Part shown: positions 3,270 through 24,310 of the stretch, in pieces | Position numbering within the stretch: position 1 is the stretch's first letter | Layout of the letters: each line of letters opens with the position of its first letter | Source: Turritopsis dohrnii | Lineage: Eukaryota > Cnidaria > Hydrozoa > Anthoathecata > Oceaniidae | Direction: 5' to 3' | NCBI GenBank assembly: GCA_027922465.2 | Contig: BQMF02000029.1 | Location: forward strand, 930,001-994,000 | Length of the DNA: 64,000 nucleotides | Notes under the pieces: generated by a model | The model's input: only the letters and a program-made list of their open reading frames with translations | Told to the model about the DNA's origin: nothing | The model's database searches: none | Made by a program: the position numbers and the translations under genes

Positions 3270-4548
3270 TCAGATACTAAATGCAGGTATGAAACTAAGT
3301 ACCACTGATGTTTCTGCAAATGCAAGGTCAAGTTGATATCGTTTGACTAAACGAGAAAATGTTTTATAATTCTTTTCTGACTTTAGATTAACTGGTAGGT
3401 CATCAAAACTTTTACTAATTGAGCCCTTGAATGTTTTTGTGTCCATATTTGATGGCAGTGTATACTCGTTAATACTACGAAGTCTTGCGTCTCTAGGTTT
3501 GAAAGTCAGCTTAAGATATTCTGGGAAAGTTTCATTGTAAATTGCCTTATGCACTAATTTTAATTGGTAATAGTTAATTCGTTCGATCGTTGGTATCCAG
3601 AGAAGATTTGTAACATCCGAAGTACTAGAATATCTTTGCATAACGATCGAAGCAGCTGATCTCATAGCTTTTTGTAAACGATTAATTTAAATTTGGTTAG
3701 CATTTGTAAGTAGTGGTAGAGCATAATATACTTTGGATAATACCAGTGTTTCAACTAGTTGCTTTTTTCTGTTGTAGTTAGCATATCGCTTTGATTTACG
3801 CAGCACAGTTTAGCACAGCATGATTTCACAACTCCATTTATATGAGTCTTCCAAGATCAGTTCTCATCAAAATTAACACCTAATACTTTCCAGTTTCTTA
3901 CTCTTTCGATGGATCCACTATCTACGACAATTTTATATGCATTAATGTCTGAAAGATTATGAAGGGTGTATATTATTCTTGTTGCAAATAACATCGATTT
4001 AGTTTTATCAAGATTGAAAATCATATTTTTGCTTTTGGCGTACTGCAACATATCTTGCATAACTTTTTCCAACTTTGAGATATTTTGATTTAATTGCGAA
4101 GGTTGGAAATGTTCGTAACAGGTAGTGTCATCAGCATATTGACAGATATTAGTTTCAATCACGTTTTACATGTCTTATACGTATAAATTAAAAAGAATTA
4201 GAGCCAACACAGAGCCTTGTGGATCACCAAATCTACTAGCTTTCTTTGTGAAGATTTCCCATTCACTTGAACAAACTGTGGTCTTTGACACTAATAACTA
4301 CAAATAAACTTAAATGAGCATTTATCAAAACCAAGGTTGATCAGGTTTTGTAGTATAGTTGATTACTCAACTACTGTATCGAATGCCTTTGAGTGGTCAG
4401 GAAATATGGCCATGGTGATTTCTCCCGGTTTATTGCTTTAATTATATCATCGCGTAGTTTCAGTAGTATTGCTGTTGTAGAGTGAGATTTTCGAAACCCA
4501 GACATGGATTCCTTTAAGATTTTTTCTTTTTCGATGTAGTCACATAAT
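3270..4548 (-). pseudogene. LINE reverse transcriptase remnant (3' half of an interrupted LINE)
   Basis: Read on the minus strand, this begins LCDYIEKEKIL, then SGFRKSHSTT, as in RT domain blocks 1-2 of CR1/L2-type LINEs. Next come a degraded FDHSKAFD-like block, the catalytic YADD motif at about 4130, and a typical LINE C-terminal region (3270-3665) rich in aromatic and charged residues. Stops and frameshifts separate the blocks. The upstream endonuclease half lies at 23785-24310. The two halves rejoin in frame (NQLC followed by DYIEKEK) if the 4549-23784 element and one target copy are removed. Confidence 0.8.
4542..4548. repeat. Left target-site duplication ACATAAT
   Basis: These seven bases are identical to 23785-23791 and directly abut the left terminal inverted repeat, which starts CAAC. 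In the LINE they encode part of the Gln-Leu-Cys in the RT. Confidence 0.85.
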
Positions 4549-4624
4549 CAACCCATCATCGCGAAAAAAACTATGATAATCATACTTCGTAAATTTTGGA
4601 AAATACTATGATAATCATACTTCT
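4549..4624 (+). repeat. Left terminal inverted repeat with paired palindromic 18-mers
   Basis: It matches the reverse complement of 23709-23784 with about nine mismatches and one indel. It contains two direct copies of ACTATGATAATCATACTT at 4570-4587 and 4605-4622, 35 bp apart. Each copy has the near-palindrome TATGATAATCATA at its core. Paired palindromic repeats at both tips are plausible transposase binding sites, which is inference. Confidence 0.85.
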
Positions 4625-5322
4625 GCGTGTCCCGCCGAGGCCTGGATATACATATTGCCGGCAACGACGAGCCCTTCTTATGTGGCAATTTATTGGTACA
4701 AATGGCCCGGATACCGTCAGTTTGATATAACTATGAAGGCATCAAGCTGCCTTGCTGGCCATTGAGGTATCCTCTCCTCTGACTTGATCTTGTGGATTCA
4801 GCTAGCTAGATAAGCAACATTACATCATGAACAGTGACGTGCGAAATAAAGTAGGAGGCTCTTCAACTTATAGTAAAGGTGAGTTGTATCATTATGCGCC
4901 AGTATGGTGCTAGAGTCGGAAGCTAGAAATAGAAATAGACTATACAACAAATTCTACCTGTAGACGCAGACCAGCTTCTCGTTCTATTGCTCTTTAACGC
5001 ACACACAATGTGATCCCTGATGACAAATATAGATGAATTCCTTCAAAAGTTTATGGCCAGGGCCCAAAAGCCTAATCTAAAATGTTTACGGTGTCAAGTC
5101 AAGTGCATATCAGATTTCTCTCCATGCAACCTGTTGAAAAATATTTTTCTTTTGTCCTTCTATACTTTTACTTTTCGGACTCAATATGTCAGATTTTGGG
5201 AAGTGAGAATAGGACTTTAACACCAGATATTTGTGACATTCACATATATGTGCGTGCCTAGATTTTCGTGGGAATATGTGAACAGTATATATATATATAT
5301 ATTTTTTTTTTTTGTCAATTAG
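4625..5322. other. Presumed 5' region of the transposase gene
   Basis: This 700-bp stretch lies between the left inverted repeat and the first recognisable exon. It should hold the promoter and the true first exon of the KDZ gene, but I find no convincing start exon. An AT dinucleotide run lies at 5286-5301, just before the first acceptor. Confidence 0.35.
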
Positions 5323-5514
5323 CACATGGACTGCTAAAGACGATGCTTAAACCGCATTCACGGTTGCAAAGAAAAGCTAGTTTTTATGAATTTGCACGAA
5401 GTTCGACAACAGGTAGAAGAATATTGAAAGACAGTGTTCCAACAAAGCGCAAGTATAAAAAGAAATTGAAACCAAGGAGCAGACCCACCGGAGTTTATTT
5501 TCCATTGGAATAAG
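5323..5514 (+). other. First recognised exon of the KDZ gene (basic N-terminal segment)
   Basis: It starts after the acceptor TTAG at 5319-5322 and ends at the donor GTATAT. An ATG lies at 5343. The peptide is strongly basic (KRKYKKKLKPRSRP), as expected of a nuclear localisation or DNA-contact segment. An in-frame TAA falls exactly before the donor, so translation would end here in this copy. The LLKTMLKP motif recurs as LLKTMVKP in the next exon, suggesting an internal duplication of a basic module. Exit phase 1 matches the entry phase of the next exon. Confidence 0.5.
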
Positions 5515-5609
5515 GTATATAAATAATTGCATTCCAATTGAGTGATACCACTTGTATCTGAATCAATGTTTTTGAATTATCAGTCTCAAACACATCTAAC
5601 TAATTTCAG

Positions 5610-6131
5610 CCTCAATCACATCTAACACTGTAATGAGTGAAGGTGAAGGTCTGAGTGTTATGGAACAACACAATGATGCTGAAATCAGTGATGAAAACTG
5701 TGACGGTGTCAGTAATGAAATTTGCGATAATGTTAGTGATGAAAAAGGAAGGAAGGAAGATGCATTTTTGAGGAGCAATGAACTTTTAAAAACCATGGTG
5801 AAACCTGTTTTGAAAAGGAGGAAAAAGTATAGAACGAAATCTTGATTTGAACGTAGAAAGTCGAATCAAAATCAATGGCGGAGAAATAGATCCATGGTTT
5901 GGGATGCGCTATTGGCTTTTGAAGAACTCAGTGAAATTTGTTCTATGTGCCAGGAGAGAAATGCAATAATCAGATGTGATGATTGTTACAATAGTGCCCT
6001 CTGTTTTGTTTGTGATAAAAATGTGCATGTAACTTATCCCTTGCACGACCGATGTGTTTTCATGGGTGGAATACAACAACGTTTAAACCCTCTAGAAGCA
6101 ATAAACGAATCGATGGAAATTGAACTTGCAG
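5610..6131 (+). other. KDZ exon with acidic leader and cysteine-cluster zinc region
   Basis: This phase-1 exon opens with an Asp/Glu-rich stretch with repeated ENCD/EICD/NVSDE elements. A basic segment and a Cys/His cluster (C-x2-C-x7-C-x2-C, then C-x2-C...H) follow. KDZ transposases usually carry such CxC clusters ahead of the catalytic domain. A single TGA at 5843-5845 interrupts an otherwise continuous frame, and downstream ATG 5894 is in the same frame. Confidence 0.65.
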
Positions 6132-6958
6132 GTATGTATTAGCTATATTTGTATGTATAAGTTTTCTTTGACTCATTTTATGTTCTTATTAAGCGATTTA
6201 TATATTTATTCTAATAGTGAAATCTGTTAAGCTCAAATGTTTTGCTTGTAAACATTGTAATGGAAGAAACATAACACAGAGATTTACTGAAGATATGTGC
6301 ATGGTAGTGACATTAAAAGGTTCGTATACTTGTTCCATAATACATTCGAACTTTGTCAGTATTAACCTTCTTGTCTTTTATTATAGTTTATATATACTCA
6401 CCTCTTGTATGTTCTATTTGTAAAAAGAGAATTTTTGCTGTTTCTTAATTTCTTTTTTTATTTTAGTCTTACTAGTTCCTTAATTTTCAAACTATTCTTC
6501 AGCCTCAAGTTCCTTACAAAGGTGTTCTTGAAAAAACATGTAATGAAAATGAAACAAGGGATTTCCTGACTTATTATGATTACTGTTGTACGCATTCACA
6601 TCATTTAGGACGTTATGATATATTCAAATACAAGATTATTTGTGAAGATTGTGGTGGCGCTACTGACCCATTCGAAGTTTGTTTGGTCCTTGGGACTGGA
6701 TTTTGGCCTGGCACTCCTTGTTCCATCAATTACCTGATCAAGGAGGAAGTATTCATACTTTGGGATGCATTTCGTAGCAGAATGCCTGGTAGCTCTATGA
6801 GATCTTTTCTGGCATCATTATGTGATATTGGTGGCTTTTACGGAAGGGTAGATTCATTCTTAACATTTACTTATATATTTTACTTTTTACATTTACTACT
6901 TATAGTTATATTTTTACATTATTTACTTATTTTATTTGTATGTATGTATATATTTTAG

Positions 6959-8090
6959 ACAAACATGATAAACGTCACAACATTTTCATCAGCCTTCAAA
7001 GAATGGAAATATTGGAAACACGAGAAAGATTCAATTCAACGGATGAACTGGCTTGAATGTCCTCCATGCACAATAAAGCAACACAGCTGCCATGTAGATG
7101 GCAATTGTAAATTGTATAGATATTCTTCTTCTGGAAAGTAAGTGTGTCAAATTTTGAGCCTTGTTGCCATTCGATAATTTAACCACATCTAATTTTGTTT
7201 TGTACTATTTTCGATGTGGTGTGATAATTATTTTTTTTTACGAAAAAAGGCGAAAAAGACCATCATATTATGGTGAATTACTGTTTGGATCAAATGAAAA
7301 AGTTGAAGCTTATTTAAAGCAATTATATGGAAATTGGTCATTTGTGAACAAGGTTTCTACTGCATTTTCGTTTATTTTATCATTTCCTCTGTTTTAAAAT
7401 TTCCGTAAGAGGTTTCAGTACTATTTGATTGGAGCATATTTCACCTATGTTCTCACGGAATACCAAACGTGCTACGTGCTACTCTGTGGGCTCATCTGAA
7501 TATCTATTTTCACCTTCCTGAATATCTACTTGTTATTATTTATTGTAAGGGTGACAGTCATTGTGGAGGAAGATGGTCTGCAGCAAGAAATGTTAAACAG
7601 AAAGCAAAATCATTGGACGAATCAGGAATTGAAGTTGCTACATGCAGACATAGAATTGGACAAAGGGCTGTAAACATGTTTCAAGGAGAGCTGTTCGGAT
7701 ATCCACTGTTCTTAATGAAAGAATTTATGATTCCTTCTCAAGTTTCCTTCTGTTTTGCTGATGTCATGTGCAAGCTCTGGAAATTTATATGCAAACATTC
7801 ACCTGATATTGCAAATTCAATTAAACCAGCTTTATCTGTCATGCATGCAAAAGGACACGCATATGACTGTCAAGTAAGCATTTTCATTCCCAATCCAAAT
7901 CTCAATTATTCAAAGTACCTGGAGTATTGTTCAAGTTGTCAGATTGCAATCTTGCATGTTGTTTATTTAAAGGTACTGTGGAGTGGCCAATGGTTAGAAG
8001 GAACTAGAAAATCTACAGGAGAGGAAACAGAACAACTATTTAGTTATTTATCTCGGTATGGAACAACTACGAAACATCAAACTCCAGAAA
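6959..8090 (+). CDS. KDZ transposase catalytic core (four exons, intact frame)
   Basis: Exons 6959-7137, 7250-7352, 7550-7873 and 7973-8090 join with compatible phases (0/2, 2/0, 0/0, 0/1) and contain no stop. The first exon ends with CPPC...HVDGNCKLYRY, the KDZ signature with the first catalytic Asp. The third has CGGRW, a LDESGI...CRHR block, then FCFADVMCKLW with the second Asp, and VMHAKGHAYDCQ. The fourth has STGEETEQLFSYLS with the presumed catalytic Glu. All three acidic residues survive, so the fold was functional recently. The inserted His/Cys residues around the core match the family pattern. Confidence 0.85.
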
Positions 8091-8327
8091 GTTAGTATAT
8101 TTCATTTGATTTTCCATTCATTTGCTTTTTATACTCTTTTGAATAATTCTTTGTGTCAAGTAAACACAAACACCTGAAAGTCATCAGTATAGCTAATGTG
8201 AATGTGCTCTTCTTTATCAACCCGCTAATATGCATTACATTATACAAAATATATATTCGTATGTACAACCAAGAGTAGTGAACAATAATACCAGTGTTTA
8301 ATGTTAGACAGTTTTTTATTTTATTAG

Positions 8328-9829
8328 ATCGTGAAAAACAATCACTGAAATGGTTCAGGCATGGAACAAACGCAAAATTACTAACATTATTGTTGATTTA
8401 AAGAAGCGTTATGAAAAGGTTACTGTCAAGACTTATTCAAACGAGTCTACTTAACTGTTAAAATCAGGTCTTGTTTAAACAGAATTTCACAGCCTATATT
8501 CACAGATATTTTACTACATTCAATTTCAGAATGAGAAGGATATAAAAAGTTCTATTCAAGTTCTACAGAAGCTCGAAAGAGAAACTAAATTGCAGATCCA
8601 AGAAAATGCAGCTGACTGGATACAAGAAATAAAAAACACTGCAAAAGGTATACTAGCTACAGAATTTTTAACAAATAATTTCCTTAACAAAGTACGGTAT
8701 TTCAAGCACTTCAAGAACTTTTTTTGAAATGATTGTAGGTATTAGACTTTCCAAACCCAGTAGAGTGTTAACAAATGCAGAAAAGGCCATCTTACTCCTA
8801 AACGATATCGACATACCAAGTAGAGTTGAATTGTTATCAGGAAAGTATTTTCCAAAACACCTCAAAAAGTCTTCATATTACTCGCTTTTGGATTTTGACA
8901 AAGTAGACAAGAGGAAAGAGTTTGAAAGGCTTGACAAGATTGTCAATTTATCAGCACACGTGGTTGACGATTCCTACGAAAAACTTAAAGATCTTGTTTT
9001 GAAACCGTTACTGCACAAAGAAATTGAAAAAATGTTCATGGAGAAAGTGGTGTGGGCAACTAATATAAAAAAAACAGCTGGTATGTATACACTGTATTAA
9101 GATAAAAGCAGTGTCTTATTAACATTTTTCAAATAAAATAATTATTTTTATATTGAAGTCTCTTCAATATAACATGCTGTCTGTCTACTCTGATATAGTT
9201 GAATCAAGGCAAAAGTTCCAGATAGCATTGAATAGAATGTAAACTTGAACTAAACACAGAATTCATACATTTCTTTACTGTAGTTTTTCTTCTGAAAAAT
9301 TATTAAATGAAGCAAAGACGGAAAAAGTGCTTAAATTGCCACTTAAATCTTGTATTGACTTTTCTGAGATGTATATTATTGTTTCAATCAGATACCAGTA
9401 AAAGACGTCATATTCTGAGGGGAAAACAGGCAGTTGTGAATAGTAAGTTCAAAGACATGTTGAACGAATATGCAGATTTATACAGTAATGTGGATCGACA
9501 AAAATTTTTTGAATCATGTGAGAAAGGTTCGTTTCCTTGGCTGGTAAATGATACAAACGTTTCCTCTGAAACAGGTCAGTACAGCTCTTTATTTAAGTAA
9601 TCATCACTCGCATTTCCTTTGATATATGTTATTGTTTAAAAAGAAAGTTCATACCGTCAAAAAAATCAATTCTTTTCCATAGCTGTTGATCGACGAATGT
9701 GTGTAGAAGCTTATCTTGACCATTCCCATCTGCGCGAAGAAAAAGAAATTCTTTTAAAAGAAATGCAAAGTTGTTTGGATTATTATTGTTCAAAAGTCAA
9801 GTCACTGGAAGAGGATTATAAGAGACATA
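8328..9829 (+). other. KDZ post-catalytic helical region (five exons)
   Basis: Exon 8328-8418 reads REKQSLK and, one frame over, WNKRKITNII, a typical KDZ post-catalytic segment. A single missing base near 8347-8352 explains the switch. Exons 8530-8647, 8739-9080, 9392-9574 and 9683-9829 are open, charged, and probably helical or coiled. They carry matching phases (0/1, then 1/1 throughout). Confidence 0.65.
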
Positions 9830-9928
9830 GTAAGTGTTCTACCTCATCCATTTCATTGTAACGAGACACTGCTATCAATCTGATGTTAGTCTAATTTTCT
9901 CATTTATTTTTGCGTTTATTATAAAATA

Positions 9929-11592
9929 CTAGCCGCCAAGGCGGCGTCGCTTGCCACCCATGTCCACCTTCAGTATGCGTTGGGTTCACGAAAAATAAAA
10001 TTAAGGATTTACCAATAATAAGTGTGCCCATGTTGCAGAGCTCGAAAAACTGATCAAAAAAATGTATGGGATCCTTTTCCTATGGTCAACCGTTAGAGAG
10101 ATATCTTCGTTCAAACATTTTGATGACGTCACAGACCCGTCCCCCAAAAAATTTGGCCTAAATTTGAGTTCACCGAAAATAAAATTAAGGAATTTGCAAT
10201 GATAAGTGTGCCCATGTTGTAGAGCTTGAAAAACTGATCAAACAAATGTATGGGATCGTTTTCCTACGATCAATCGTTTCGGAGATATCGTCGATCAAAA
10301 TTTTGATGACGTCATAGACCCATCCCCCCAAAAAATTAGACCCAAATTTTTCGTCACTCTATCGCCTGTATCGCGGACCCCAAAAAACGTCAGTTATCCA
10401 TATTGGTTACGGAGATAATTTTCCCTAAACGTCACATTCGATTAGGGTCTCAATACAATGGTTTCACACTGACGTCGCACAAAATAAAATAAAATAATCA
10501 CTCTCACAACTCAATCTACCATTTTGCGTGACTTACAAACAAACAAACGCACAAACAAACAAACAAACAAACAGAGAATCGGCTATTAATATATAGACTA
10601 GCCGCCAAGGCGGCGTCGCTCGCCGCCCATGTTCAGCATGCGTTGACTTCACGAAAAAAAAATTAAGGAATTGGCAACCAAAAGTGTTCCCATGTTGTAG
10701 AGCTCGAAAAACTGATCAAAAAAATGTATTGGATCGTTCAGTTACGACCAACCGTTACATAGATATCGTTGATCAAAAATTTTGATGACGTCACATGTCC
10801 GTCCCCCCAAAAAATTAGACCCAAATTTTTTGTCACCCCATCGCCTGTATCGCAGACCCCAAAAAACGTCAGTTATCCCTATTGATTACCGAGAAAATTT
10901 TCCCTAAACGTCGCATTTCGATTAGAGTCTCAATACAATGGTTTCACACTGACGTCGCGCACAAGAAGAGAAATAATTTATGTGTAATCTTACATTGCTG
11001 ACTCTTTTTCGCATTTCACATCTACCATTTTGCGTGACTTACAAACAAACAAACAGACAGACAGACAGAGAATCGGCTATTAATATATAGACTAGCCGCC
11101 AAGGCGGCGTCGTTCGCCGCCCATGTTCAGCATGCGTTGATTTCTCGAAAAATAAGATTAAGGAATTGGCAACCGAAAGTGTTCCCATGTTGTGGAGCTC
11201 GAAAAACTGATCAAAAAAATGTATGGGATCGTTCCGCTACGATCAACCGTTACAGAGATATCATTGTTCAAAGATTTTGATGACGTCACAGACCCCTCCC
11301 CAAAAAAATTAGACCCAAATTTTTTGTCAGCCCATCGCCTGTATCGCGGACCCCAAAAAACGTCAGTTATCCATATTGGTTACGGAGATAATTTTCCCTA
11401 AACGTCACATTCGATTAGGGTCTCAATACAATGGTTTCACACTGACGTCGCGCACAAGAAGAGAAATAATTTATGTGTGATCTTACATTGCTGACTCTCT
11501 TTCGCAGTTCACATCTACCATTTTGCGTGACTTACAAACAAACAAACAAACAGACAGACAGACAGACAGAGAATCGGCTATTAATATATAGA
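9929..11592 (-). mobile_element. Tandem triplet of non-autonomous Helitrons
   Basis: Three head-to-tail minus-strand copies lie at 9929-10597, 10598-11091 and 11092-11592. On the minus strand each starts TCTATATATTAATAGCC and ends with the hairpin CCGCCTTGGCGG directly followed by CTAG. At both internal junctions the CTAG of one copy abuts the TC of the next with no spacer. The outer flanks are A on the 5' side and T on the 3' side, the Helitron A-to-T insertion rule. Each copy has an (AAAC)n(AGAC)n microsatellite near the 5' end. The first copy contains an extra internal duplication of about 175 bp. The array lies in the intron between KDZ exons 13 and 14. Confidence 0.9.
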
Positions 11593-11761
11593 TTAACTCT
11601 TATCTGTCTTTAGTTGCGGATGTGGTATCTAGCTGTGATGAACAAGGTGATAATTCTCAAGATGTCGAAAACAGTACTTTTTCCATGGTCAGTCGAATAT
11701 TTTCTTTTCCATGCGTAGTTTCATATTGAGGATTTGTCTAACACTTCATTGTTTTTATTAG

Positions 11762-12649
11762 GATGCAGCTACTAAAGGAAAATTGGTTTTGATAAAAACT
11801 GCGATAGTTAATTATCGAAGCCAGATTGAAAAAGCATTGAAGGCTTTCCAAGGCTACTTCGATCACAACGGTTTGCGTGTTGATTTTTCTAAAGATAGCG
11901 ACATTATTAACAGTGACACGGACAGTGGAAGTGAAAATAACGATAGTGAAGATAACGACACTGTTACATCTGAGCAAGAAAGCAATGAAATATTCGATAT
12001 TACAGATATCTCATTCGATTTTATTTTGTCTATGGGAAAGGATCTCGGTGGTTCCTTCACATTTAACGAATGCAATTTGAATATACAAAACGACGTGATA
12101 AATGTATTTTTACCAAGTGAGTGTTGTCAGAGTAGGTTGGCAGGCGCAGAAGGAAGTAACGCGTGTGTCATTATTTCGTTGCTTGTTGGATTCATGGCCA
12201 CAAAATCGGATATTACATGGCAGAATTATACTGAAACAAAATTCATCGAAACTTTCATATCTATTATGTGTGGTGCTATTCATACTGGGAACTTATTATA
12301 CGACTATTATAATGCCAATGGTTTTCTTCATATTGCAGAAGCTATCAAGTTTATCCCGCCTTTTATATCACTAGACATAAGTGATGAACACAACATTTTG
12401 TCTTCGGGTGTGAAACATTTCATGGAAAATTCTGCTCAATTACAGCATAACAGTTTTTCGATTTTAATAGTGAATGATAAAGCTGTTTGTGTGCTATCAA
12501 GTGATAATAGTGTTTTGATTGTTGATAGTCATGCATGTGATCCATACGGTGGGAAACTATCATTTTTCGAACGAAACAATATACCTGAAGATTTACCGCT
12601 ATTCAAGGATAATGAACTTGGTTATGTATGTGTAGTTGAATGTAATTAA
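11762..12649 (+). CDS. C-terminal exon of the KDZ gene: acidic linker plus cysteine-protease-like domain
   Basis: The open exon begins DAATKGK after an AG acceptor and ends at TAA 12647-12649. It starts with a helical segment, then an acidic linker (SDTDSGSENNDSEDND). A globular domain of about 170 residues follows, with SRLAGAEGSNAC (Cys codon at 12164), an FSILIVNDKA strand, and VLIVDSHACDPYGG. A Cys after GSN and a DSH late in the domain resemble papain-fold deubiquitinase-like proteases such as the C76/USP groups; this is a pattern-based guess. The phase-0 join from exon 11614-11687 links it to the transposase. Alternatively it is a separate gene starting at ATG 11783. Confidence 0.65.
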   Translation, partial: DAATKGKLVLIKTAIVNYRSQIEKALKAFQGYFDHNGLRVDFSKDSDIINSDTDSGSENNDSEDNDTVTSEQESNEIFDITDISFDFILSMGKDLGGSFTFNECNLNIQNDVINVFLPSECCQSRLAGAEGSNACVIISLLVGFMATKSDITWQNYTETKFIETFISIMCGAIHTGNLLYDYYNANGFLHIAEAIKFIPPFISLDISDEHNILSSGVKHFMENSAQLQHNSFSILIVNDKAVCVLSSDNSVLIVDSHACDPYGGKLSFFERNNIPEDLPLFKDNELGYVCVVECN

Positions 12650-12719
12650 CTGACCCTATTTTATCTCCGTCTTTCCTATTTTAATTGTTAGTTTTATCAA
12701 AGCTTCTGTATAAACCATG

Positions 12720-12731
12720 TATGTTAATAAA
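12720..12731 (+). terminator. Likely polyadenylation signal of the KDZ gene
   Basis: AATAAA occurs about 75 bases after the stop codon at 12649, in a suitable position to end the transcript. Confidence 0.5.
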
Positions 12732-12739
12732 AAAAACTA

Positions 12740-13170
12740 AATATTTTCCCTTTTTTTATAATATAATCAAATCAAATTGACTGAACCGCAGGTGCCACAC
12801 CACTCTCGTTCTCATAGGACAGGCAGTCTCAATCCTCTACGCCGAAAAATGGCAATGCGCATGTTTCTAGCTACACCCGTCCACAAGATGATCAACTAAA
12901 TTCACATAAATGTGATAACGTCACTGACCGGCGTGTGTCCTTAATTCATCTAAACGGGCAATGGCGATTAAAAACAGGATTTGTCGACAATTTCGCCATG
13001 GATCTCTTGTGTTATCGCATCGTTAACGATACTCGAAAGAAGTGGTTATTATCAAAACAGAAAGTATATGACAACTTGATGTACTCAAAGAAGTATAAAG
13101 GTCGATATACATTCCTACGCGTCTTTCTACCTAACTTGCACATGCGGGTAGGTTAAATGCCGCTCGTTAA
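12740..13170. other. Spacer inside the transposon
   Basis: A short plus-strand frame at 12935-13156 looks moderately coding (many Lys/Tyr/Asp residues) but has no recognisable motif. Nothing else is seen. Confidence 0.3.
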
Positions 13171-13378
13171 TAGACCTTTCCCGAGTTTATTTTTTATCAC
13201 ACTCCGCCTCGTTTTCAATATGCTTTACTATGACAACCGAATCTCTTGCGCTCAATCATTAACACTTATTACACTTATTGCTCATTACTGAAATGAGTCC
13301 CGTGACATTTCGTTACCATGTTAACCCTTACGAAAACGAGACGGAGCTTGATAAAAAATAAACTCGGGAAAGGTCTAT
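13171..13378. mobile_element. 208-bp MITE with about 35-bp inverted repeats
   Basis: The left end TAGACCTTTCCCGAGTTTAT is the exact complement of the right end, and the match continues through TTTTTTATCA with a few mismatches. TA at each tip is the likely target site. No coding capacity. Confidence 0.8.
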
Positions 13379-15028
13379 AGTGTTTTCAGATGTTATTAAA
13401 GCAGCACGTGTGAGGATTTTAGAGTTCTATTACAAATACGGCCGACAATGTGCAATATTATCCTACTGGAATATCCCCATACCAATTGACAGTAATTAAA
13501 GTTACTAAAAACAAAAGAAATGTATTGGTATTTTCTAATAATGTTCATGGATGTAGGAGAGAGATGTTTGTTTGAAACACTACTTAGATTTTGGTCGTTT
13601 TTATCAAATTAGTTGTACAACACAGGCATGGGAGTTGTATAGCGCAGGCACGAAAAAAATTAATTATTTGAGGAAACAGCTTCGAACTCGAGATCAAACG
13701 TTTGCCTTTAACTTTTGATTTGTGCGAATGAGATACTTTTTTACTTGGCGATGATTTAATTTCGCGAATGGGGTATCAACAGAGATGGAAAATTAGGAAG
13801 TAGTGAAGAAGTATGTGCATGGCGTTATGTCACAAACAAATTCAAATTACCAGTCTGTAATGCCAAATACCGACTAAGAATACACAGTTCGATTACAAAC
13901 TCCAAGCTTAGAATCCTAAGGGCTATGCATTTCAACAGCTTGAAATTTAAAGTTCGATTGCAAAGTAGGAATGCATCCCAACCTCGTACCCAGTGCGTTT
14001 CGCCTTTTTTCAGCACTGGGTACGAGGTTGAATGCAAACCATTAATTTGAAATCCAGGTAAAAATTATAAGCACAATAATTTTTGCTTGGGCTTGAAATA
14101 CAGTGCTCTGAATTTGAAATAACATTTCTCGATTTGAAAAATCGGGCTTTCTTTCTATACAACTCGATAAGAAGCATTCCGTGAATCTTCTTTTCTCGAA
14201 ACAATGTTCTGGTCTGTAATTTTCAGCATGGGAAACATGTATGTTTGAAGCTAAAATTGCCGATAACAAGCTTTTCGATGTTTTTTCAAGGAAGTCTCGC
14301 TTAACTGTTCTGTGCCTGTTGTTAACACCGTAGAGAAATACAGAAGTGAAATACAGCCATGTTAAAACACACATGTATCTGCTATGTGTTGTACCAATCC
14401 AGTCAATGTCAAAATCAATGTTGAGAGAATTTTTCTAATATCGCGTATATCAAGCATTAGTTGCTGCGGCGCAGAGGCACAGAAACAAAATAAATGTCTG
14501 CGCGGTAATATTACTGACCAGAACTGAAGAAAGATACGTGGAGAAAAAGGTAATATATAATCTCACCGCGACCCAATTGTCTAGCAGTGGCTAGTTGCGT
14601 CAAACTTTTTCTTACTGCGAAGCCTAATTGTACACCTATCAAAATATGTGCGCCAACAAACAGCAGATTTTTTACCGAACGGTATGTGTACACTGCTGAC
14701 ACGATGAGAGTATTGACAAATGCATCGTTATGATTTGTTAAATATATATTTCAAAAGGAGTATAACATTATTACATAAGACGTAAACATCTTTCCATACG
14801 TTCGATTAACTTTCTATTGGGCATATTTGGTCAAATATTGTAATTAGGCTAGCTCGAGAATTTTGTCCAGAAAACTAAGACAGATTAGATAAAAGAGAAA
14901 TACTAAATATTTCTTGACAAATCCACGTATCTATTGATAAGCTTTCAGCGAAAAGTACAAATCTTTCTCAAGCGAAATTTCATACAAGTTCAAAAATTAG
15001 CTAGTCGCTAAATACAATTACACACGAA
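13379..15028. other. Region inside the transposon with weak minus-strand reading frames
   Basis: Minus-strand frames at 14042-14374 and 14511-14702 have reasonable composition, and the second ends near a GTGAGA donor. Neither shows a known domain. They could be exons of another minus-strand gene, but splice phases could not be tied together. Confidence 0.3.
13979..14030. repeat. Perfect 18-bp inverted repeat with 16-nt loop
   Basis: CAACCTCGTACCCAGTGC (13979-13996) is the exact reverse complement of 14013-14030. The homology continues weakly outward. It looks like the tip of a short fold-back element. Confidence 0.8.
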
Positions 15029-15788
15029 TCAAAATTTCCTATAAAAATATCTCAAACGTTTGTCGAACTTTTTTGCTACCGATATAGCTCGTTTCATATC
15101 GTTAACAACTGTTGGGTGCGTATTCTTGATGTGAACTGAGAATCTATCGAAATACCTAAAATTAATAAAATTATACCAAAAAATGGAAAAAAAAGTCCGA
15201 ACTCGACAACTACTCACCTATCACAGCCTCTACAAGGTAGAGGTTTTGTTTGACCAATGCGATAAACTTTCGTGTAATAGTTGAACAGACGAACTTGTTT
15301 AGATTTGAAAAGTTCGGCTATTCTGTCAGCCATTATGCCAAGGTGGACAGCTTTAATGTGTCTGTCAACTTTATCACCTTGATATTGACAGCCAGTGATT
15401 GGACATTTGACTTCGTACACATATCGACTGTTCGTTATCTTTATCTGTACAGCCTCAACACTACCAAGATGTTTTATCAGGTCTCCTGGAATCTGGTTGC
15501 AGCGTTTCAGCACAAAGTTGACAGCTTTGATGTGCCTAGCAATACAATCCACAGCTTAAATTATTTTTTTTCAGATCCGAGGTCTAAGTATCGTACTTTT
15601 CAGAAAAGCTTTCTTACCAATGAGTGCTAAGAATTTCTTGTACAGGCCCTCTGAAAATTGCCACTAGATAAATAGTACTAAACATACCTAGGAATATTAT
15701 CATCTGGTATGTTATGATTGAATAGTTGGCCCGGATAGTAGTTGCGATCACCAGAATATTTGAATTTCGTCACATTTGAATTTGACAT
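15029..15788 (-). CDS. Small HIKxxH zinc-finger protein (about four exons, partly resolved)
   Basis: A likely first exon 15788-15688 begins at an ATG (MSNSNVTKFKYSGD) and ends at a GTATGT donor. Exon 15554-15218 contains CPITGCQYQ...RHIKAVH, a C-x4-C-x9-H-x4-H finger. It ends inside a second finger completed by exon 15155-15029 (CRGC across the junction, then HIKNTH). Stop TGA is at 15031-15029. The last junction is in phase (2/2). A small exon near 15635-15600 is plausible, but the phase into 15554 does not match, so a sequence decay or unseen exon is possible. The earlier ARHIKAV block looks like a degenerate third finger. It is likely a nucleic-acid-binding accessory protein of the element, which is inference. 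Confidence 0.55.
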
Positions 15789-16269
15789 GTTATTAATATT
15801 TATTCTAATGACAAAAGATAAGTAAAAGTAAAGCTGTCATGGTAGTGTATCAATCACTGAATTTCATGAAACTGCTCATTTTTAAAAAATCAACCAGTAC
15901 TGGATTCCCAATAATAGTAAAAAGGATATTCCACTCTCATGCGAAGTGTATTTGCACTTAAAAACTATCAAATTTACAGCATACGTTTACATACTATATC
16001 TAATATCAAATTATAAACAGATCCGTTCTTCTTGATGAAAAGGTTATAATAAAAGTTGAGGAAAATGCTGCTTTCAATCCATCTTTCAATCTCGTATGCT
16101 TGTAAACAATCATCTTTAGTGCGAATTCTAGTTTTATTTCCAAAAGAAAAAATGAAAAGCCATTGCAGCAAAAAAGATTTTTGAATTTCAAATCATATTT
16201 CTTTCCGAATTAATTTCTTCAAACTTATTATTGAATATCAAAAGTGAACAACCTGATATAAAACTTGTG

Positions 16270-19200
16270 TTATGTACAATTGGACTGCAATAATTCTTCT
16301 GCTTCTTTTGAAATTTTGAAAACACCTGCCACATTTATCGCATGTAATACAAAACAGTTCTTTCCTGTCTTCGACACTCTTACAACATTGTTCCATATAA
16401 ATTTGCATGGATCGCCGAGTGTATAATGCCGATTCGAAATTTTGTTCAGCCACATTCCTTCGAACTTCTTCCCAGCCATTGACACAACTTTTAACAACCA
16501 AAATTGTTCACTGTCATCGGGTGGAGAATAAACGGATAAAATATTCCCAGCAGTTATTTCAGATTTCGATAAAACTGAAGAAAAATTAAAAAAAAGGTCA
16601 ACATGGAGACGTGATACATTGAGTGTTTATCAAAAGACAAATTATACTCACCAGACACTCCAGATACAAAACTCCCTTCATAAACCTCATCTTGTTCATT
16701 TCCAACACTTTCAATAGACGCTGTGTTACTTGCTGAAAATAGATTATTAGGAATTATAATTTCTTATTTTTGGACCAGAGTGATTTAAAAACTAACAAAA
16801 TGCACAATAAGTATTGGACACCTACAAAAATTATATCAGTGGGAGGTTCGCCACATTTTTTAAAATCATGGCATTTATTTCAGTGATGAAATAGTATATA
16901 CCATTGCTAGTAGAACCAGTCATTTGTTCATTATTGAAGTTTTGATCAGACGTATCATTATTTGTGTTTGATTCATTAATTCCTGCTACAAATTAGAAAG
17001 TGAAATTAGTTTTTCAAGAAATAAGCAATAACCCCTACCAGACAATATTGTTAAAAAGTACCTTTTGCTGTTTCACCTTGGCCATCACATACATCGTCTG
17101 TTGGCGGTATACCATTTATTTCTAGATAAAAATTTCAACTTAAGAGGTAAAGAAAGGGGAAAATGACACAGCATCTATACAGTTTGCTATGAGTTACGTG
17201 TAATAACAATCAAATTTACTACCATACTACTATCATTAATTCCTGCCACAAATTAGAAAGTGAAATTAGTTTTTCAAGAAATAAGCAATAACCCCTACCA
17301 AACAATATTATTAAAAAGTACCTTTTGCTGTTTCACCTTGGCCATCACATACATCGTCTGTTGGCGGTATACCATTTATTTCTAGATAAAAATTTCAACT
17401 TAAGAGGTAAAGAAAGGGGAAAATGACACAGCATCTATACAGTTTGCTATGAGTTACGTGTAATAACAATCAAATTTACTATATACCATGAAAACAATCT
17501 TTAATAGCTTCAATTATGATTTTCCCATTTGGGGTTCTATTTTGTTTAGGTCCAAGAAACTCCTCCGAAAAGCCAGGTGTTGCAAAGGAATCCATACTGA
17601 TGTTTCTTTTTCCCTTCTTAATCATAAACAGGATACTGTGATAACCATGCTGTTCATGTAAGCCAAGTAACTATGAGCATAAAATTCAAGGAGTTAGAAA
17701 AACCAGTGTGGTGGCCAGAAATTTTGGCAATTACTGAAATTGTGTTAGCAGACCTTTTCACTAGTTAGTCAGCGGCTTTAGCCAGATGACTATTGGAATA
17801 GGGTTTCGTCGTCGTCGTCGTCGTCGTCGTCGTGTATGATTTTTTTATTAAAAATATCTACGAAGGAGTGTCGTCTAATGGATTTTTATACTGAACACGT
17901 TTCATTTTAAGCTTGATCTCCGGCAAAACTTTCTATTATGTCATGGTGTTATGTTTTGATACTCTAGGGAATGAATTAATGAATAAAATTATTTTAAAAA
18001 AAGCATTAAAGAACTTGATCTTCTTTATAATAATATTGTTAAATTTATTGAACACATGTGAGCTCTAGAAAAATAATTCTGGATCAGAAAAGGTCATTCT
18101 GTAATTGTTTGGAAGTCTTACAGTCATTCGCAGGAATACTTGTGGCTGTTAGGGCATCTTGTTGTTCTTTCTCTGGTCAGTACTGTTCAAGTGAATGATG
18201 AAAAGATTTTGCAAGATTAACAAAAATGCCGCTGACTTGCTGCCGTAATCGGCTGCATTTTTAACACTTAAAGTTAATCAACGAAGATATATAGAGCTTG
18301 TGATAGATGAACAGCGGTAAATTCACGCATGCATAAGAAATGTACTAACACGTCCGTATACTATTACTATGTACAGTCTTCTACAAGTTTTAATGTAATA
18401 GCATTCAGCGGGTTGATTGTTTGCCTATTATTGTGTATATAGTCAATGGAATATAAACACAGGCGAAGAATTCAAACTTTTGATTTGATTTAGAAAGCAA
18501 GCCATGTGGAAATGTTGCTTGTATTCAAGATATCTCCGGCAAAGATTTTCAATTTCTATATGACTTTTTCACAGAATGGCGTGGAATTTACTTTCTCTCC
18601 AGACTGGTTTAGAAGAAATTTTCTGTATTTCATTTATCAATATTTTGGATTCTATGCTATTTCCTCTTATGAAAGCAGTGGGTGTGCCTTGTTAACTTAA
18701 CAGTCCTCTTATGACTGAAGCATTGTAACATAAAAGTATGACCGGGGCTTCCTAACTTCTTTTTTCACTGAAAAGGCTAGACCCTGGGAAGAAAAAAAAA
18801 CATTTGATTTCGACATTTGTGTACATTTGAGATTTGTATTTTTAAATCAACAAAACAATGTATATTTCGCTAATCACAACAATTCAGCATGTAATATTTT
18901 TTTTCTCATTTTTAACCAAAAGGTTATATATATACCAAAAAAGAACATGAGTAACATGAGTGGTAATCAACAAGAACAACACTGAAATTTCATTTTTGTT
19001 CTGAGATGGCAGATGTTACATAATTTTGTTGAAATCTTTTGTTGATTCTCACCCCCTCAAATATAAATCAAGTTACAAATATTATTTTTAACTGCATAGA
19101 GAACTGCAGGAAAACACAAAAAATAACTTGTTGCAAATTTAAGGTATCATCCACACATCAGTCATCACTGCCTCCTACTACAGTGAAAAAGAGGATAGAC

Positions 19201-22009
19201 AGCTGGGTTGGTAGTGTGATGGTAGACTTTCCTTCAAATATCCACTGATCTTCCAAAAAGCAACAAAGCATAAAAGGCATATGTGACGGTTTGAGGGAAA
19301 ATCATAACAAGTGATAATTTCTGATAAATTTATTAGTAAATTACTGATTAGAAAACAATAGATTTCGATGAATCAGTAATTCGTTCGATTTATCAGTAAT
19401 TTGTTTGATGAATCAGTATTACTGATAAAATAATTGGTAAATACTGATAAAGAATCAGTAATTTATCAGTATTACTGATTCATCGAACGAATTACTGATA
19501 AATCGAATGAATTACTGATTCATGGATAAATCAAACGAATTACTGATTATTTATCAGTATTACTGATTATTACTGATAAAGTTCTGATAAATTACTGATT
19601 AATTTATCAGTAATATCACTTGTTATGATTTTCCCTCAAACCGTCACATATATAAATATAATATAGGTACCATAAGATGAAATATAAGACAAAAAGAAAA
19701 TAGTCTACATTGTTCTCCAACCTATGTACTGCCTGTGTTAACTTAACAGCAACATTTATTTTAAAATGTTGCTGAGGGAGGCTCTTCAGTATTCTGTTGT
19801 TGTCAATTTTTAAATAAAAGATAGTGTAACACAGGGAATAGGGTGAAATCTATTAAAGGGATTCCTGCGTCCAAAATGATAATTTACAAATATGATAGAG
19901 CTGAAAAAGTTGCTTAACAAGTCTCTTTTCAGTATTTCAATTATTTATAGTTTCTGAGATATTTCGTTTTTAATATCTTATATTTAATTTATGCAATGCA
20001 TATTTATGATGTAATAAGATAGTAACTTACACTTTTTATCGCAATAACTTAAGATATGATTAATATTACATCGTTGTAAGTTACTATGAAGTAGAGGCTT
20101 CCACTCTGAGTTGATTTATAGAAGAATGAAGTCACAATATTTACTAATTCAGAAGTTATACACACTAACAAAATACTATCTTATTACATCATAATTATGC
20201 GTTACATAATTTGAACATTTTTAAATTGAAATATCTGCCCAAGGAAACAAAATTTCCAAAAACTGTAAAAAGAGTTCTTAAACAACTTTGTGAGTTCTAT
20301 CATCATCCCCTGAAATATCGTTTTGGACGCAGGAATATTTTCATAAAGGAGCAGGTTGATTGGCATAGATTGCTTTGATTTTTCGCGACTATTCATGTTT
20401 CCCCTAATTTAAAAAAAAATCAAGACACAGGACCCAGACGAGAAGAGCACTCTCTCCCTCTTCTCTTCTCTATATATACTTTTTTTCATTTTTGAATAAG
20501 AACTTAAGCGTTACAGCAGGATACATATATAAAACAATCTATGTCACCCTGCAACATATCCATATCTAAGCACGGACAGTAAATCGTATAAAGAATGATT
20601 TTAGTCATATTATTTCTAGCCTCTCTACTACTGTGAGTTTGTCCTTCCAACAACTCAATGTTGTCCATAATAAATTTTAAACATGACAATGTGTTAGGGA
20701 AGCTCATCGAGTTTTTAAAAAACAGAAAGCGCTCTGTTAAAGCCAAAGCCTCGTCACCTTCGCCCACATGTATTCTATATTTTTTTGCTGAGACCTTTTT
20801 CTTCTTTCTTACGGGAGAAGCGGTCGGAGCAAAGTCAGCTTTTACCGGCATGTGGTCCCGTCCTCGTCCGCCATTTTGTTTATTTTGATTTTTTCTATCT
20901 TTCTCCCAGCCGTCTCTGGTTTAACTAATGACGAAGGATTCCTTGTTGTAGATATTAATATGACTTTAGTGAGTGAAATCACGGTAAAATTTGCAAGTCA
21001 GCAGTTTTTAAAAATGAGGATCCTCGCTTCTTTTAGCTTCGTTGATTATCTTTAAAAACATTTCTAATACTGATCTTATAAATACACACATACCCTGCCA
21101 TTTATGATATCTTTTTGCAATGTGGGGTTGCTTTGACCAGCTGGAACATAGTCCCGTATACTTTTTCTTCTTCTTTCAAACACAACCCCACAGTTTATAC
21201 ACTTCCGCTTTGCTGCCTCATTATCAGTGTTACAGTCTTTGCATTTCTGAAAAAGCATATACTATTCTAATCGCATTGATGAATTCAACAAGAATGTGTC
21301 ATATGAAAGAAGGAACAGGGTGATCCTTGTCTTTTCATTTCAATCCGATATCAGGCGTATAAAAATGCATGTAAACATAAAGATAAATTACCTTCAAGCG
21401 CTTCCCAAATTTCATTTTCTGAACCTTTTTCTTTCTTTTATTTAACTGACTCGTGCCTGCTGTTAGAGTTAGATAAAAACTTAGATAGATAAGCCAATCA
21501 GATATGAACTCCGAACCTAGCAATTCGAATGTAGTACAAACCCATAACATACACAACTTCAACAAAAACCTGAGCAGGAAGAGTACAAAAACGTACACAC
21601 AACAGCTTCAAAACCAAACATATATACTTGTTCTAATAAATATATGAACAAATCCAACAGTTACAGTGTCAAGTCAACTATCTGGGAACTTGAGGTTTTC
21701 CTGCAGTTGAAGAGATTGCTGTTTCATTTAGAACACTATAATACGGTTAAAAATGTAGTACCTTCAATGTTGTCAGCGTTTTCAGTTGTTGTATTAATTT
21801 GAACTTCATTAGATGTTGCTGAAACGTTTAGAATATAAATCAGAATATAAATGGACAGAAAATGTTGAACAGGTATTTTATACATGATTAACGGATAACC
21901 TAAGATGTTGGAAAATTTTAATGAATATAAAAATTTTGATTACCTTGATCATTTACAGTAGTTTGAACTGTTGTTTCACTGATTTCTGCATTTTGTGTAT
22001 TGGATGTTT
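16270..22009 (-). CDS. Transposon-borne gene with zinc ribbon, variable exons and unknown C-terminal domain
   Basis: Ten exons run in minus order: 22009-21944, 21818-21762, 21456-21392, 21246-21094, 17670-17487, 17381-17322, 17121-17062, 16982-16902, 16732-16652 and 16574-16270. Phases fit throughout (1/1, 1/1, 1/0, 0/0, 0/1, then 1/1 to the end). The first two exons are Ser/Thr/Asn/Glu-rich; the third is basic (NKRKKKVQKMKFGKRLK). The fourth is a C-x2-C-x11-C-x2-C ribbon starting KCKDCNTDNEAAK, somewhat like RanBP2-type fingers. The fifth has HGYHSILFMIKKG. Four small acidic phase-1 exons follow, two of them near-identical. The last exon gives a domain of about 100 residues with FWLLKVV, FEGMWLNKI and FIWNNVVRV, ending at TAA 16270-16272. 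The start exon is not found. Function unknown. A 3.4-kb intron separates exons 4 and 5, so two genes are possible. Confidence 0.6.
16974..17480 (-). repeat. Tandem duplication of an exon with its flanking introns
   Basis: Block 16974-17220 is repeated at 17234-17480 with only a few differences and a 13-bp joint. Each copy holds one 60-bp symmetric phase-1 exon (17062-17121 and 17322-17381) encoding the same INGIPPTDDVCDGQGE peptide with intact AG and GT signals. The near-identity shows a recent event. Confidence 0.85.
17802..17832. repeat. (GTC)n trinucleotide microsatellite
   Basis: About ten consecutive GTC/TCG units. Confidence 0.9.
17840..18175 (+). mobile_element. Divergent copy of the Helentron/HINE-like repeat
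   Basis: It shares the TTTTAAGCTTGATCTCCGGC block and the terminal CGCAGGAATACTT...GGGCATCTTG block with the array at 32224-40484. It is strongly diverged and internally shortened, so it is an old copy. Confidence 0.6.
18790..19279. other. No supported feature
   Basis: A 69-residue plus-strand frame at 19039-19248 shows no motif; otherwise AT-rich intronic sequence. Confidence 0.3.
19280..19650. mobile_element. Fold-back MITE built from ACTGATAAAT-type repeats
   Basis: A 37-bp inverted repeat beginning TATGTGACGGTTTGAGGG marks both ends, with TA at the tips. The whole interior consists of alternating copies of TTACTGATT and AATCAGTAA, so both halves can pair along almost the full 371 bp. 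No coding capacity. Confidence 0.8.
20504..20851 (-). CDS. Hypothetical 115-residue protein, basic N-terminus
   Basis: The open frame starts at ATG 20851 and runs to TAA at 20504. It opens with a basic stretch (SPVRKKKKVSAKK) followed by a mixed helical region. An alternative upstream ATG in the context aaaATGGCGGACGAGG lies at 20885 and could be a short first exon ending at GTAAAA. It sits inside the long intron of the minus-strand gene. No family recognised; it could be a small regulator encoded by the element or a chance frame. Confidence 0.4.
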   Translation of the reverse strand: MPVKADFAPTASPVRKKKKVSAKKYRIHVGEGDEALALTERFLFFKNSMSFPNTLSCLKFIMDNIELLEGQTHSSREARNNMTKIILYTIYCPCLDMDMLQGDIDCFIYVSCCNA

Positions 22010-22121
22010 CTAAATTTTATTTTGAAGATTGTTTAGGAAATAGTAGCAAATGCAAGGATTTGTGAAGGATATCTCTCAAAGAGTGATGTCCCATAAAAGG
22101 TGAGCCTTTCACAAACATACT

Positions 22122-22561
22122 ACACGCTTTTTTTTATAAGCACCAGTAAATGTGAAACGAGAGTTGCTGGTGCTTAAGAATTTTCGAAATGTAGTCAGAA
22201 ATGGTGCTTAGTTGGTGCTTGTCTGGACCCATAGGATAACCATCATACTCCTACTCATGCACACTTCAGACAGAGAAACACAATGAAACAAGTAAAGCAA
22301 CTTTTCTAAACAATAACAAACTGACGACACTTTCGAAATTCATTCGAATGATCCTCATATAACGTGAGAACTTTTTGACGACACTTCTAAGCATGTGTAA
22401 ACATTCTATTGACAAGAATCGGACCATTATAGAAAATAATTCGAATGAATTTTTATTCAGTGAAGTGAGACTGAGGCTGGTGCTTAGGTGGTGCTTACCT
22501 TTTGATCAAATCTGAGGCTCGCGGTGCTTATAGAGGTGGTGTTTATAAAAAAAAAGCGTGT
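22122..22561. mobile_element. 440-bp TIR element rich in GGTGCTTA repeats
   Basis: The ends CACGCTTTTTTTTATAA and its complement, with TA at each tip, bound the element. GGTGCTTA occurs several times in one orientation and TAAGCACC at the left end. These clustered short repeats resemble multiple transposase-binding sites. Confidence 0.75.
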
Positions 22562-23708
22562 AGTCGGTACTCGAGACTCCCTGAACTCTGCGATCTCAAG
22601 GAAAAACTATAGGCCCAAATCCACAAAGTGATAGTTTGGTGTTTCCACAGAACTTTCCTCAAACACTTAGAATAATGCATTTCAAAAGAGTGAAAAACAG
22701 TAGAACAGTTCTACACACACATACAATGCTATATCGCAGACCATTCTTTCAGTACCATAAAAAAGTTAAGTGGGCCCACCTCTTTGTATCCAACAGAATG
22801 TTGACGTATACAAAATCTAAAACAGGTGGTCACAAACTCTATGACCCCACCGTCTTTGTGATTTTCCTTCGCCAGATACATATTGTAGTAAACATTGCAA
22901 TCATTGGCACACTGCTTTGAAGTCCATGGCAGGAGGCCTGTACTATTACCAGCTATTACTAATAATGCTAATACTTACTGCCAATGCCTTGCTTGTCTAC
23001 ATGTACCTTCTGATGTTTGGCCTCATATAACTATCAGGGATTTTTTACCCAGAGGAATGAGAAAAAAATAAATGTTTACTATGGAAACTGTCTGTCGATA
23101 AGTAGCGCTAGGTATATACTTTGCCAACCATTTTGTGGGAATATTAAAAAAAACACGCACACACAAGCCCTGCTATGGTATTAAAATATTTAGCCCCTTA
23201 TTTTGGCCCCTGTTTCACTGCACGGAATCCATCTATGTATGTAATACACCGCAGCATGGCAGAGCTTTCTTGTAGATTTATTTATTTCCCTGCCCCAGCA
23301 ACGACACCAAAAGACAATATGAATATTAGCTACAAGCTTAGAGAATGTTCCAAAAGTATATATCAGTTACTAACAACAAATGCTACATTTAGCTAAGTTC
23401 TATACACAATGCATATTTTTGTATTTCGTATCAACCAAAAACAACACCAAGCAAGCAAGGACTTTAGCTGGGAAATTGGTGTTGAGACCATGCAGACAAG
23501 AAATATTTTCATCATTCCTCTCAGTATCGGTTATTTTCAGCACTACCTACTTTGTTGTAAATCAGCTCCTTCCATTTCAAACAAAGAATGTAGATTGGTG
23601 CACGTATTAGTCCTTCTCTCGTGTTAAACCGCTATACTGCTAGAGAGACACGCTACTATGGGCCGCCATGTGTTCCGCTGCAATCGTGTTCTGTAAAATA
23701 TACTTCTG
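22562..23708. other. Right arm of the transposon, no confident gene
   Basis: Short plus-strand frames (22636-22920, 23175-23610) lack motifs. On the minus strand ATGGCGGCCC near 23670 could start the leading exon of the minus-strand gene, but no clean donor is visible. Confidence 0.3.
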
Positions 23709-23784
23709 TAACTATGATTATCATAGTATTTTCCAAAATTTACAAAGTATGATTATCATAGTATATTTTCCCGATGACATGTTG
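23709..23784 (-). repeat. Right terminal inverted repeat
   Basis: Reverse complement of the left end. It has two copies of the palindrome-cored 18-mer at 23711-23728 and 23745-23762, and ends GTTG next to the target duplication. Confidence 0.85.
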
Positions 23785-23791
23785 ACATAAT
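23785..23791. repeat. Right target-site duplication ACATAAT
   Basis: Identical to 4542-4548, immediately outside the right inverted repeat. Confidence 0.85.
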
Positions 23792-24310
23792 TGATTTGCC
23801 ACGTTCAAAGACTTTGAAAAGCACTGTTCTAAAACGTTTATATTCATGTCACCGGCTATAATTGTGATTACCCTCAATTTGGAAAGAGCAGCATTTAAAA
23901 TATGATGAAACTTGTCCAATCAAGATTTTACTGATGATGTATCAAAATTCGGCTAATAACAAACGCCAATAAGAACATCGCTGTTTCTATTTTTTCCTTT
24001 AATTTCAAACCATAATGTTCCAATATCAGTGTCTTTATTAGATAAATCATCTCTAGGTCTACATCGTCGCGTATATAGGCAGCTACACCACCTCCTTTTT
24101 TTATTTTTTCGATTTAGGTGAAGTAATTGAAGTCCAGGAATTTGGACATAGTCGGGTTGGTATTTATTTGATGTTAACCAAGTCTCACTTAATGTATACT
24201 CATCAAAAGGATGGTCATTCGCATATGTGGTGAATTCAGAGAATATTGATATGAGCGACTGTATATTTAAATGCATTACCTTTAAAGAAGATTTTTTTGA
24301 ACGTTTCTTG
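23785..24310 (-). pseudogene. LINE APE-type endonuclease remnant (5' half of the interrupted LINE)
   Basis: The minus-strand frame includes MHLNIQSL, LSETWL, an IGVCY-type strand and AGDMNIN, the order expected for an APE-like endonuclease. The usual catalytic Glu block and SDH block are damaged or missing. After GDMNIN the sequence jumps to an RT-like segment ending NQLC, so the LINE already had an internal deletion before the transposon landed in it. The continuation is at 4548-3270. Confidence 0.75.

Follow-up and report, generated by a model that had tools for sequence, protein, structure and literature searches.

A probable three-gene KDZ transposon family in Turritopsis dohrnii whose transposase carries a predicted deubiquitinase domain

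Fungal transposons of the KDZ group that carry extra genes are known, and some of them hold TET/JBP demethylase genes (PMC12730594). The 64,000-nucleotide stretch of the Turritopsis dohrnii assembly GCA_027922465.2 analysed here (contig BQMF02000029.1, positions 930,001-994,000, labelled C29 among the assembly contigs and called the window below) contains at 4549-23784 an element that, judged from the presence of a KDZ domain, ordered motifs and a cysteine cluster, is also a KDZ element. Statements on published systems refer to the consulted sections of the cited accounts. The fungal Kyakuja elements share with the window element the KDZ transposase, CA..TG termini, 7-bp target-site duplications and the carriage of extra genes (PMC12730594). 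Those of Kyakuja are TET/JBP genes, whereas the accessory genes of the window element differ, and Pfam scans of 13 of its open reading frames (ORFs) yielded no TET/JBP match. Two Kyakuja families of Laccaria are described as being without terminal inverted repeats (TIRs), whereas the window element has TIRs, 77-79 bp long and each containing a pair of palindromes (PMC12730594). The Zisupton elements of fish, fungi and nematodes belong to the same KDZ superfamily and likewise have TIRs and a transposase of comparable length encoded by several exons (PMC12730594, PMC9297572), but their rule of 8-bp duplications (PMC12730594) fails here, where six of eight two-ended elements have 7 bp and two have no match, and the platyfish Zisupton carries CxC7 (PMC12062965) instead of CxC3. 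By published descriptions, the 7-bp duplications and CA..TG ends fit Kyakuja, whereas the TIRs do not fit the two fungal families described.

The Cryptococcus elements KDZ1-3, which are about 9-11 kb long and have demonstrated mobility, likewise combine a KDZ transposase and cysteine cluster with long TIRs, but have duplications of 8 bp (KDZ1) or 4-8 bp (KDZ2/3) and a CxC1 cluster, and the sections consulted mention no BAH-like gene and no viral tegument-like deubiquitinase (VTD) (PMC12810828). VTDs resemble the C-terminal domain described below in their Cys and Asp-x-His motif, papain-like fold and carriage by transposons; non-viral members occur mostly in Helitrons, in contrast to the KDZ element described here, and cnidarian VTDs fused to transposon-associated domains are mentioned, while the term KDZ is absent from the main text of that paper (PMC9741609). 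No KDZ-VTD fusion is described in the consulted parts of the KDZ, Zisupton and VTD literature. In the open literature no account of a cnidarian KDZ transposon or of a CxC3-KDZ protein was found; a prior description is possible in subscription papers or Repbase, which lay outside this scope. Papers pairing Zisupton with a cnidarian concern, by title and abstract, other transposon groups.

We consider it highly likely that the window element is a copy of a three-gene cut-and-paste KDZ family consisting of a VTD-fused transposase and genes convergent to it. Across the copies compared, CA..TG ends with paired palindromes and 7-bp duplications are combined with a CxC3-KDZ protein fused to a predicted VTD domain. 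A predicted opposite-strand gene with zinc-ribbon and BAH-like parts runs towards the transposase, and some of the families have a second such gene, of the HIKxxH type. The features of the window copy are as follows.

4389-4548, minus strand: left flank, LINE-like repeat that forms the insertion target
4542-4548: left copy of the target-site duplication ACATAAT, identical to 23785-23791
4549-4625, plus strand: left TIR, first bases CAACCC, palindromes TATGATAATCATA at 4572-4584 and 4607-4619
5633-12649, plus strand: gene 1, many exons, KDZ transposase with C-terminal VTD domain
6613-6848, plus strand: CxC3 cysteine-cluster exon of gene 1 (PF18804), exon edges set by eye from the P0002 alignment
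6959-8090, plus strand: KDZ catalytic-core exons of gene 1 with introns between them (PF18758), motifs HVDGN, ADVMCK and GEETEQ
12053-12649, plus strand: VTD domain of gene 1; residues predicted to be catalytic are Cys (codon 12164-12166), Asp (12524-12526) and His (12530-12532), the last two forming Asp-x-His
15029-15788, minus strand: gene 3, HIKxxH (C2H2-like), 181 aa, exons 15788-15688, 15535-15218 and 15155-15029
16273-21472, minus strand: gene 2, zinc ribbon and BAH-like, start codon and small middle exons provisional
about 16273-16593, minus strand: BAH-like last exon of gene 2
17491-17670, minus strand: second conserved exon of gene 2
about 21091-21249, minus strand: zinc-ribbon exon of gene 2
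23706-23784, minus strand: right TIR, last bases TGTTG, palindromes at 23713-23725 and 23748-23760
23785-23791: right copy of the target-site duplication ACATAAT, adjoining the right end
23792-23951, minus strand: right flank, continuation of the same LINE-like repeat

The terminal repeats pair as inverted repeats of 77 bp (left) and 79 bp (right) from CAAC to GTTG, and a 59-nucleotide ungapped stretch within them is 93% complementary. Each end contains the 13-bp palindrome TATGATAATCATA twice, at a start-to-start spacing of 35 bp. The repeats of about 75 bp and the perfect ACATAAT duplication given in the preliminary description of this locus are thereby confirmed. When the two flanks were joined with a single ACATAAT and compared with the 436-Mb assembly (891 contigs), which was used for all genome-wide searches, 19 of 40 scored rows (from 57 candidates) crossed the junction, covering query bases 8-195 at 78-90% identity. 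The one of these 19 rows that was read base by base has a single ACATATT at the junction; in a row on contig C88 the match ends just short of the duplication. These rows show the empty site in paralogues of the target repeat, not in an allele, and by this comparison the window element was inserted into a pre-existing repeat.

The presence of a KDZ transposase, also proposed before, is upheld by the plus-strand exons, which matched PF18758 (KDZ; E 5e-18, 66 bits) and PF18804 (CxC3; E 1.5e-12, 47.8 bits), in both cases against a cut-off of 26.6 bits. The joined gene 1 query was collinear with a relative of 1119 aa (P0002) over 100% of its length. HVDGN, ADVMCK and GEETEQ, which we take to contain the acidic catalytic residues D, D and E in this order, align to P0002, and similar motifs were seen by eye in P0004, P0007 and P0008. 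Comparison with P0002 also identified 6320-6612, at first a candidate frameshift, as an intron. A protease-like domain had been listed beside the transposase, but full-length relatives fuse it to the transposase, so that it is the C-terminus of gene 1 and not a separate gene. In an alignment of 10 VTD sequences, the Cys and His are invariant and the Asp is present in 90% or more, and the domain is assigned to the tegument-deubiquitinase fold; it is predicted to be a ubiquitin-cleaving enzyme. A search of PDB sequences with a profile of the transposase returned B-box rows, the best at E 0.018, and a tegument row that was weak (E 0.15). In the window copy, gene 1 is interrupted by an in-frame stop codon (TGA at 5843) and, as judged by eye, by what looks like a frameshift of one base near 8336, which could be a sequencing error. 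With these breaks the window copy may no longer be able to move itself; it could still be a substrate.

The named nearest relatives of the element proteins come from Hydractinia symbiolongicarpus and Clytia hemisphaerica. The joined gene 2 query is 57% identical to a 329-aa protein of the former (P0001, LOC130629572) at 100% coverage, which rules out that the zinc-ribbon and BAH-like exons are two genes. Gene 3 has three exons with GT-AG splice sites and no internal stops, and is a separate gene with 54% identity to LOC130629573 of the same species over 100% of the query. As these two loci have consecutive numbers and both lie on contigs of 39,956,072 bases, genes 2 and 3 seem to have adjoining relatives in Hydractinia too. 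Neither gene matched a Pfam family above the cut-off, and a profile of the BAH-like exon against PDB sequences gave weak rows of ribosomal eL6 alone.

A signature of the ends (TATGATWATCATA-N20..24-TATGATWATCATA) was found at 25 places in the genome and its reversed control at none; the 80-bp left end used as query had matched seven places, two of them the window's own ends. For 22 of the 25 signature places, one of the 32 KDZ places is no more than 30 kb away (chance expectation 0.11), whereas those on C213, C291 and C472 are without a KDZ match in this range. The C213 place is probably the other haplotype of that on C196, because the two have a common left flank. The palindrome-pair end at C472:204659-204926 is perhaps that of a non-autonomous or decayed relative. 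Eight elements have both ends (on C29, i.e., the window, C45, C50, C193, C239, C332, which has two, and C482), with palindrome-to-palindrome spans of about 11.8 to 40.1 kb. The seven non-window end pairs and five of nine single ends were inspected as short pieces, and the ends on C196, C213, C291 and C591 were also examined. Of the 16 termini of two-ended elements, 15 start with CA (by eye), and six of the eight elements, the window included, have perfect 7-bp duplications; the sequences outside the window are listed below.

C45: CATTATG, perfect
C193: AAAAGTT, perfect
C332 (two elements): TTCCAAA and TTGTACA, perfect
C482: TTTCCAA, perfect
C50: GAGTTAA against GATTTGA, first base altered, no duplication match
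C239: one end altered, no duplication match seen

The copy on C591 is 98.4-98.6% identical to the window element over the four longest blocks. Its left end is replaced by sequence that looks Penelope-type by eye (C591:78500-84500).

The order and orientation of the genes were compared across the KDZ places. The KDZ search gave 52 rows at 32 places, the other 20 rows being extra pieces of the same places; for the same reason one of 35 VTD rows and two of 53 HIKxxH rows were dropped, leaving 34 and 51 places. These counts are lower bounds, since the best candidates alone were scored, yet are inflated by haplotype duplicates; the firm figure for independent insertions is six, taken from the distinct duplications. 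Within 30 kb downstream of the 32 KDZ places, the VTD domain was found on the same strand at at least 26, and on the opposite strand the BAH-like exon at at least 22, the zinc ribbon at at least 19 and the HIKxxH gene at at least 12; no partner match in another orientation occurred within 30 kb on either side. Wherever two or more were present, the order was VTD, HIKxxH, BAH-like, zinc ribbon, except on C235, where an HIKxxH match 17 kb past the BAH-like exon may not belong to the element. Conversely, KDZ was near 26 of 34 VTD, 22 of 34 BAH-like and 19 of 25 zinc-ribbon places, but only 12 of 51 HIKxxH places (chance expectation about 0.11 or fewer each). Because the BAH-like exon accompanies KDZ even in families at only 24-47% identity, gene 2 is best regarded as a standing accessory gene and core partner of KDZ, and genes 1 and 2 are, by their distribution, inherited jointly. 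Gene 3 is limited to a subset of families by these matches and has relatives elsewhere: two of the 39 HIKxxH places that are KDZ-free within 30 kb (C83 and C363) adjoin gene-2 exons, and HIKxxH genes on C199, C90, C171, C114, C422, C112 and C34, equally KDZ-free, are 44-47% like gene 3. The HIKxxH family seems to occur in a second setting as well. The 3 kb read downstream of the copy on C90 contain sequence that is DDE-transposase-like by eye.

With other copies that share the ends and, in the same order, the minus-strand genes but differ in their 7-bp duplications, and with paralogous empty sites of the target, the preliminary description's proposal of a KDZ element with co-moving extra genes is supported for genes 2 and 3; it does not hold for the protease as an extra gene or for an orphan ORF treated below. 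Of the two roles suggested for these genes, cargo or accessory, the former is too weak a term for gene 2 and a possible one for the HIKxxH gene.

Between families, ratios of nonsynonymous to synonymous divergence (dN/dS) were low where measurable. The BAH-like exon of the C332 and C482 families gave 0.07 (dN 0.17, dS 2.4) and the VTD domain of C799 and C332 gave 0.17 (dN 0.20, dS 1.2), both rough values because the synonymous sites are close to saturation; other ratios were 0.20 (BAH-like, window/C332), 0.34 (BAH-like, C332/C83) and 0.39 (VTD, C83/C799), and six of 11 pairs were saturated. Ratios within the window family (1.37 for window/C76 and 1.10 for C591/C76) rest on six and five changes, respectively, which are too few.

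These data bear on three other explanations. A plain Zisupton-type element of the anatomy known from fish and fungi would account for the KDZ domain, for the TIRs and for a transposase that has several exons and some 1100 aa, like that of the Pristionchus elements named Zisupton (PMC9297572), but is unlikely given the 8-bp duplications of that group (PMC12730594) against 7 bp at six loci here; in addition, neither a convergent zinc-ribbon/BAH-like gene nor a tegument-like domain is mentioned in the published KDZ accounts, as far as consulted. Genes 2 and 3 might instead be true cargo, i.e., host genes captured once by a KDZ element and carried as passengers without a role in transposition. Such a role is established for neither gene, and the 39 HIKxxH places away from KDZ, including those beside gene-2 exons, would fit a passenger; we nevertheless regard this as quite improbable, as the BAH-like exon accompanies KDZ at 22 places, with identities as low as 24-25% and always on the opposite strand, which argues for long joint descent, and as those dN/dS values that could be obtained between families are low. 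The same KDZ-free HIKxxH places, together with the DDE-transposase-like sequence on C90, could also point to a composite in which genes 2 and 3 belong to another transposon, which landed in a KDZ element that spread afterwards. Against such nesting, which we hold to be very improbable, several families show the same arrangement enclosed by KDZ ends and perfect duplications, and an inverted-repeat scan of 4000-24500 (25 pairs) revealed no convincing second end pair enclosing genes 2 and 3.

In the favoured three-gene cut-and-paste family, the transposase, the small zinc proteins or both would bind the two palindromes at each end, and the transposase would excise the element and join it to staggered 7-bp cuts in the target. 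The BAH-like protein of gene 2 could tether the complex to chromatin, and the deubiquitinase might prevent the breakdown of the transposase or of its partners, or strip ubiquitin from target chromatin. More tentatively, and with a chance somewhat short of even, the elements may represent an animal KDZ lineage that combines a Kyakuja-like 7-bp cut and long palindromic TIRs with a self-encoded kit of deubiquitinase and co-inherited chromatin-reader-like protein, which would serve element-encoded targeting or escape from host control. The family adds to the KDZ elements an animal branch in which the ends are complete, duplications are present and a partner gene is inherited, and in which the transposase is joined to a predicted deubiquitinase domain known elsewhere mainly from Helitrons and herpesviruses, according to the consulted account (PMC9741609). 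It also offers a system for asking why transposons hold ubiquitin-cleaving and chromatin-reading parts.

The size of 19.2 kb proposed earlier holds for the distance between the ends, but about 4.7 kb of it (1661 + 2779 + 249 bp) are later additions, without which the element measures about 14.5 kb:

9931-11592: interspersed-repeat cluster, later insertion, missing from the C591 and C196 copies
17233-17481: tandem duplication (249 bp) of 16973-17221, a segment that C591 and C76 have only once
about 18273-21051: later nested insertion whose short ends are inverted (TAATCAACGAAG), with TTAAA to either side, missing from the C591 and C76 copies

All four additional contents listed in the preliminary description (protease-like domain, zinc-ribbon gene, HIKxxH gene and orphan ORF) are present in the sequence, but the orphan ORF (138 aa, 20504-20920) lies inside this nested insertion and is therefore ruled out as a gene of the element. 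The same insertion contains a 373-bp stretch resembling a miniature inverted-repeat transposable element, with 38-bp perfect inverted ends (19279-19651). Elsewhere in the window, 32313-40498 is occupied by five copies of a repeated block of 1.3-2.1 kb, to part of each of which an 81-bp segment of the KDZ element (17852-17932) is 80-81% similar, and 46046-47263 is a tandem array with a 128-bp unit.
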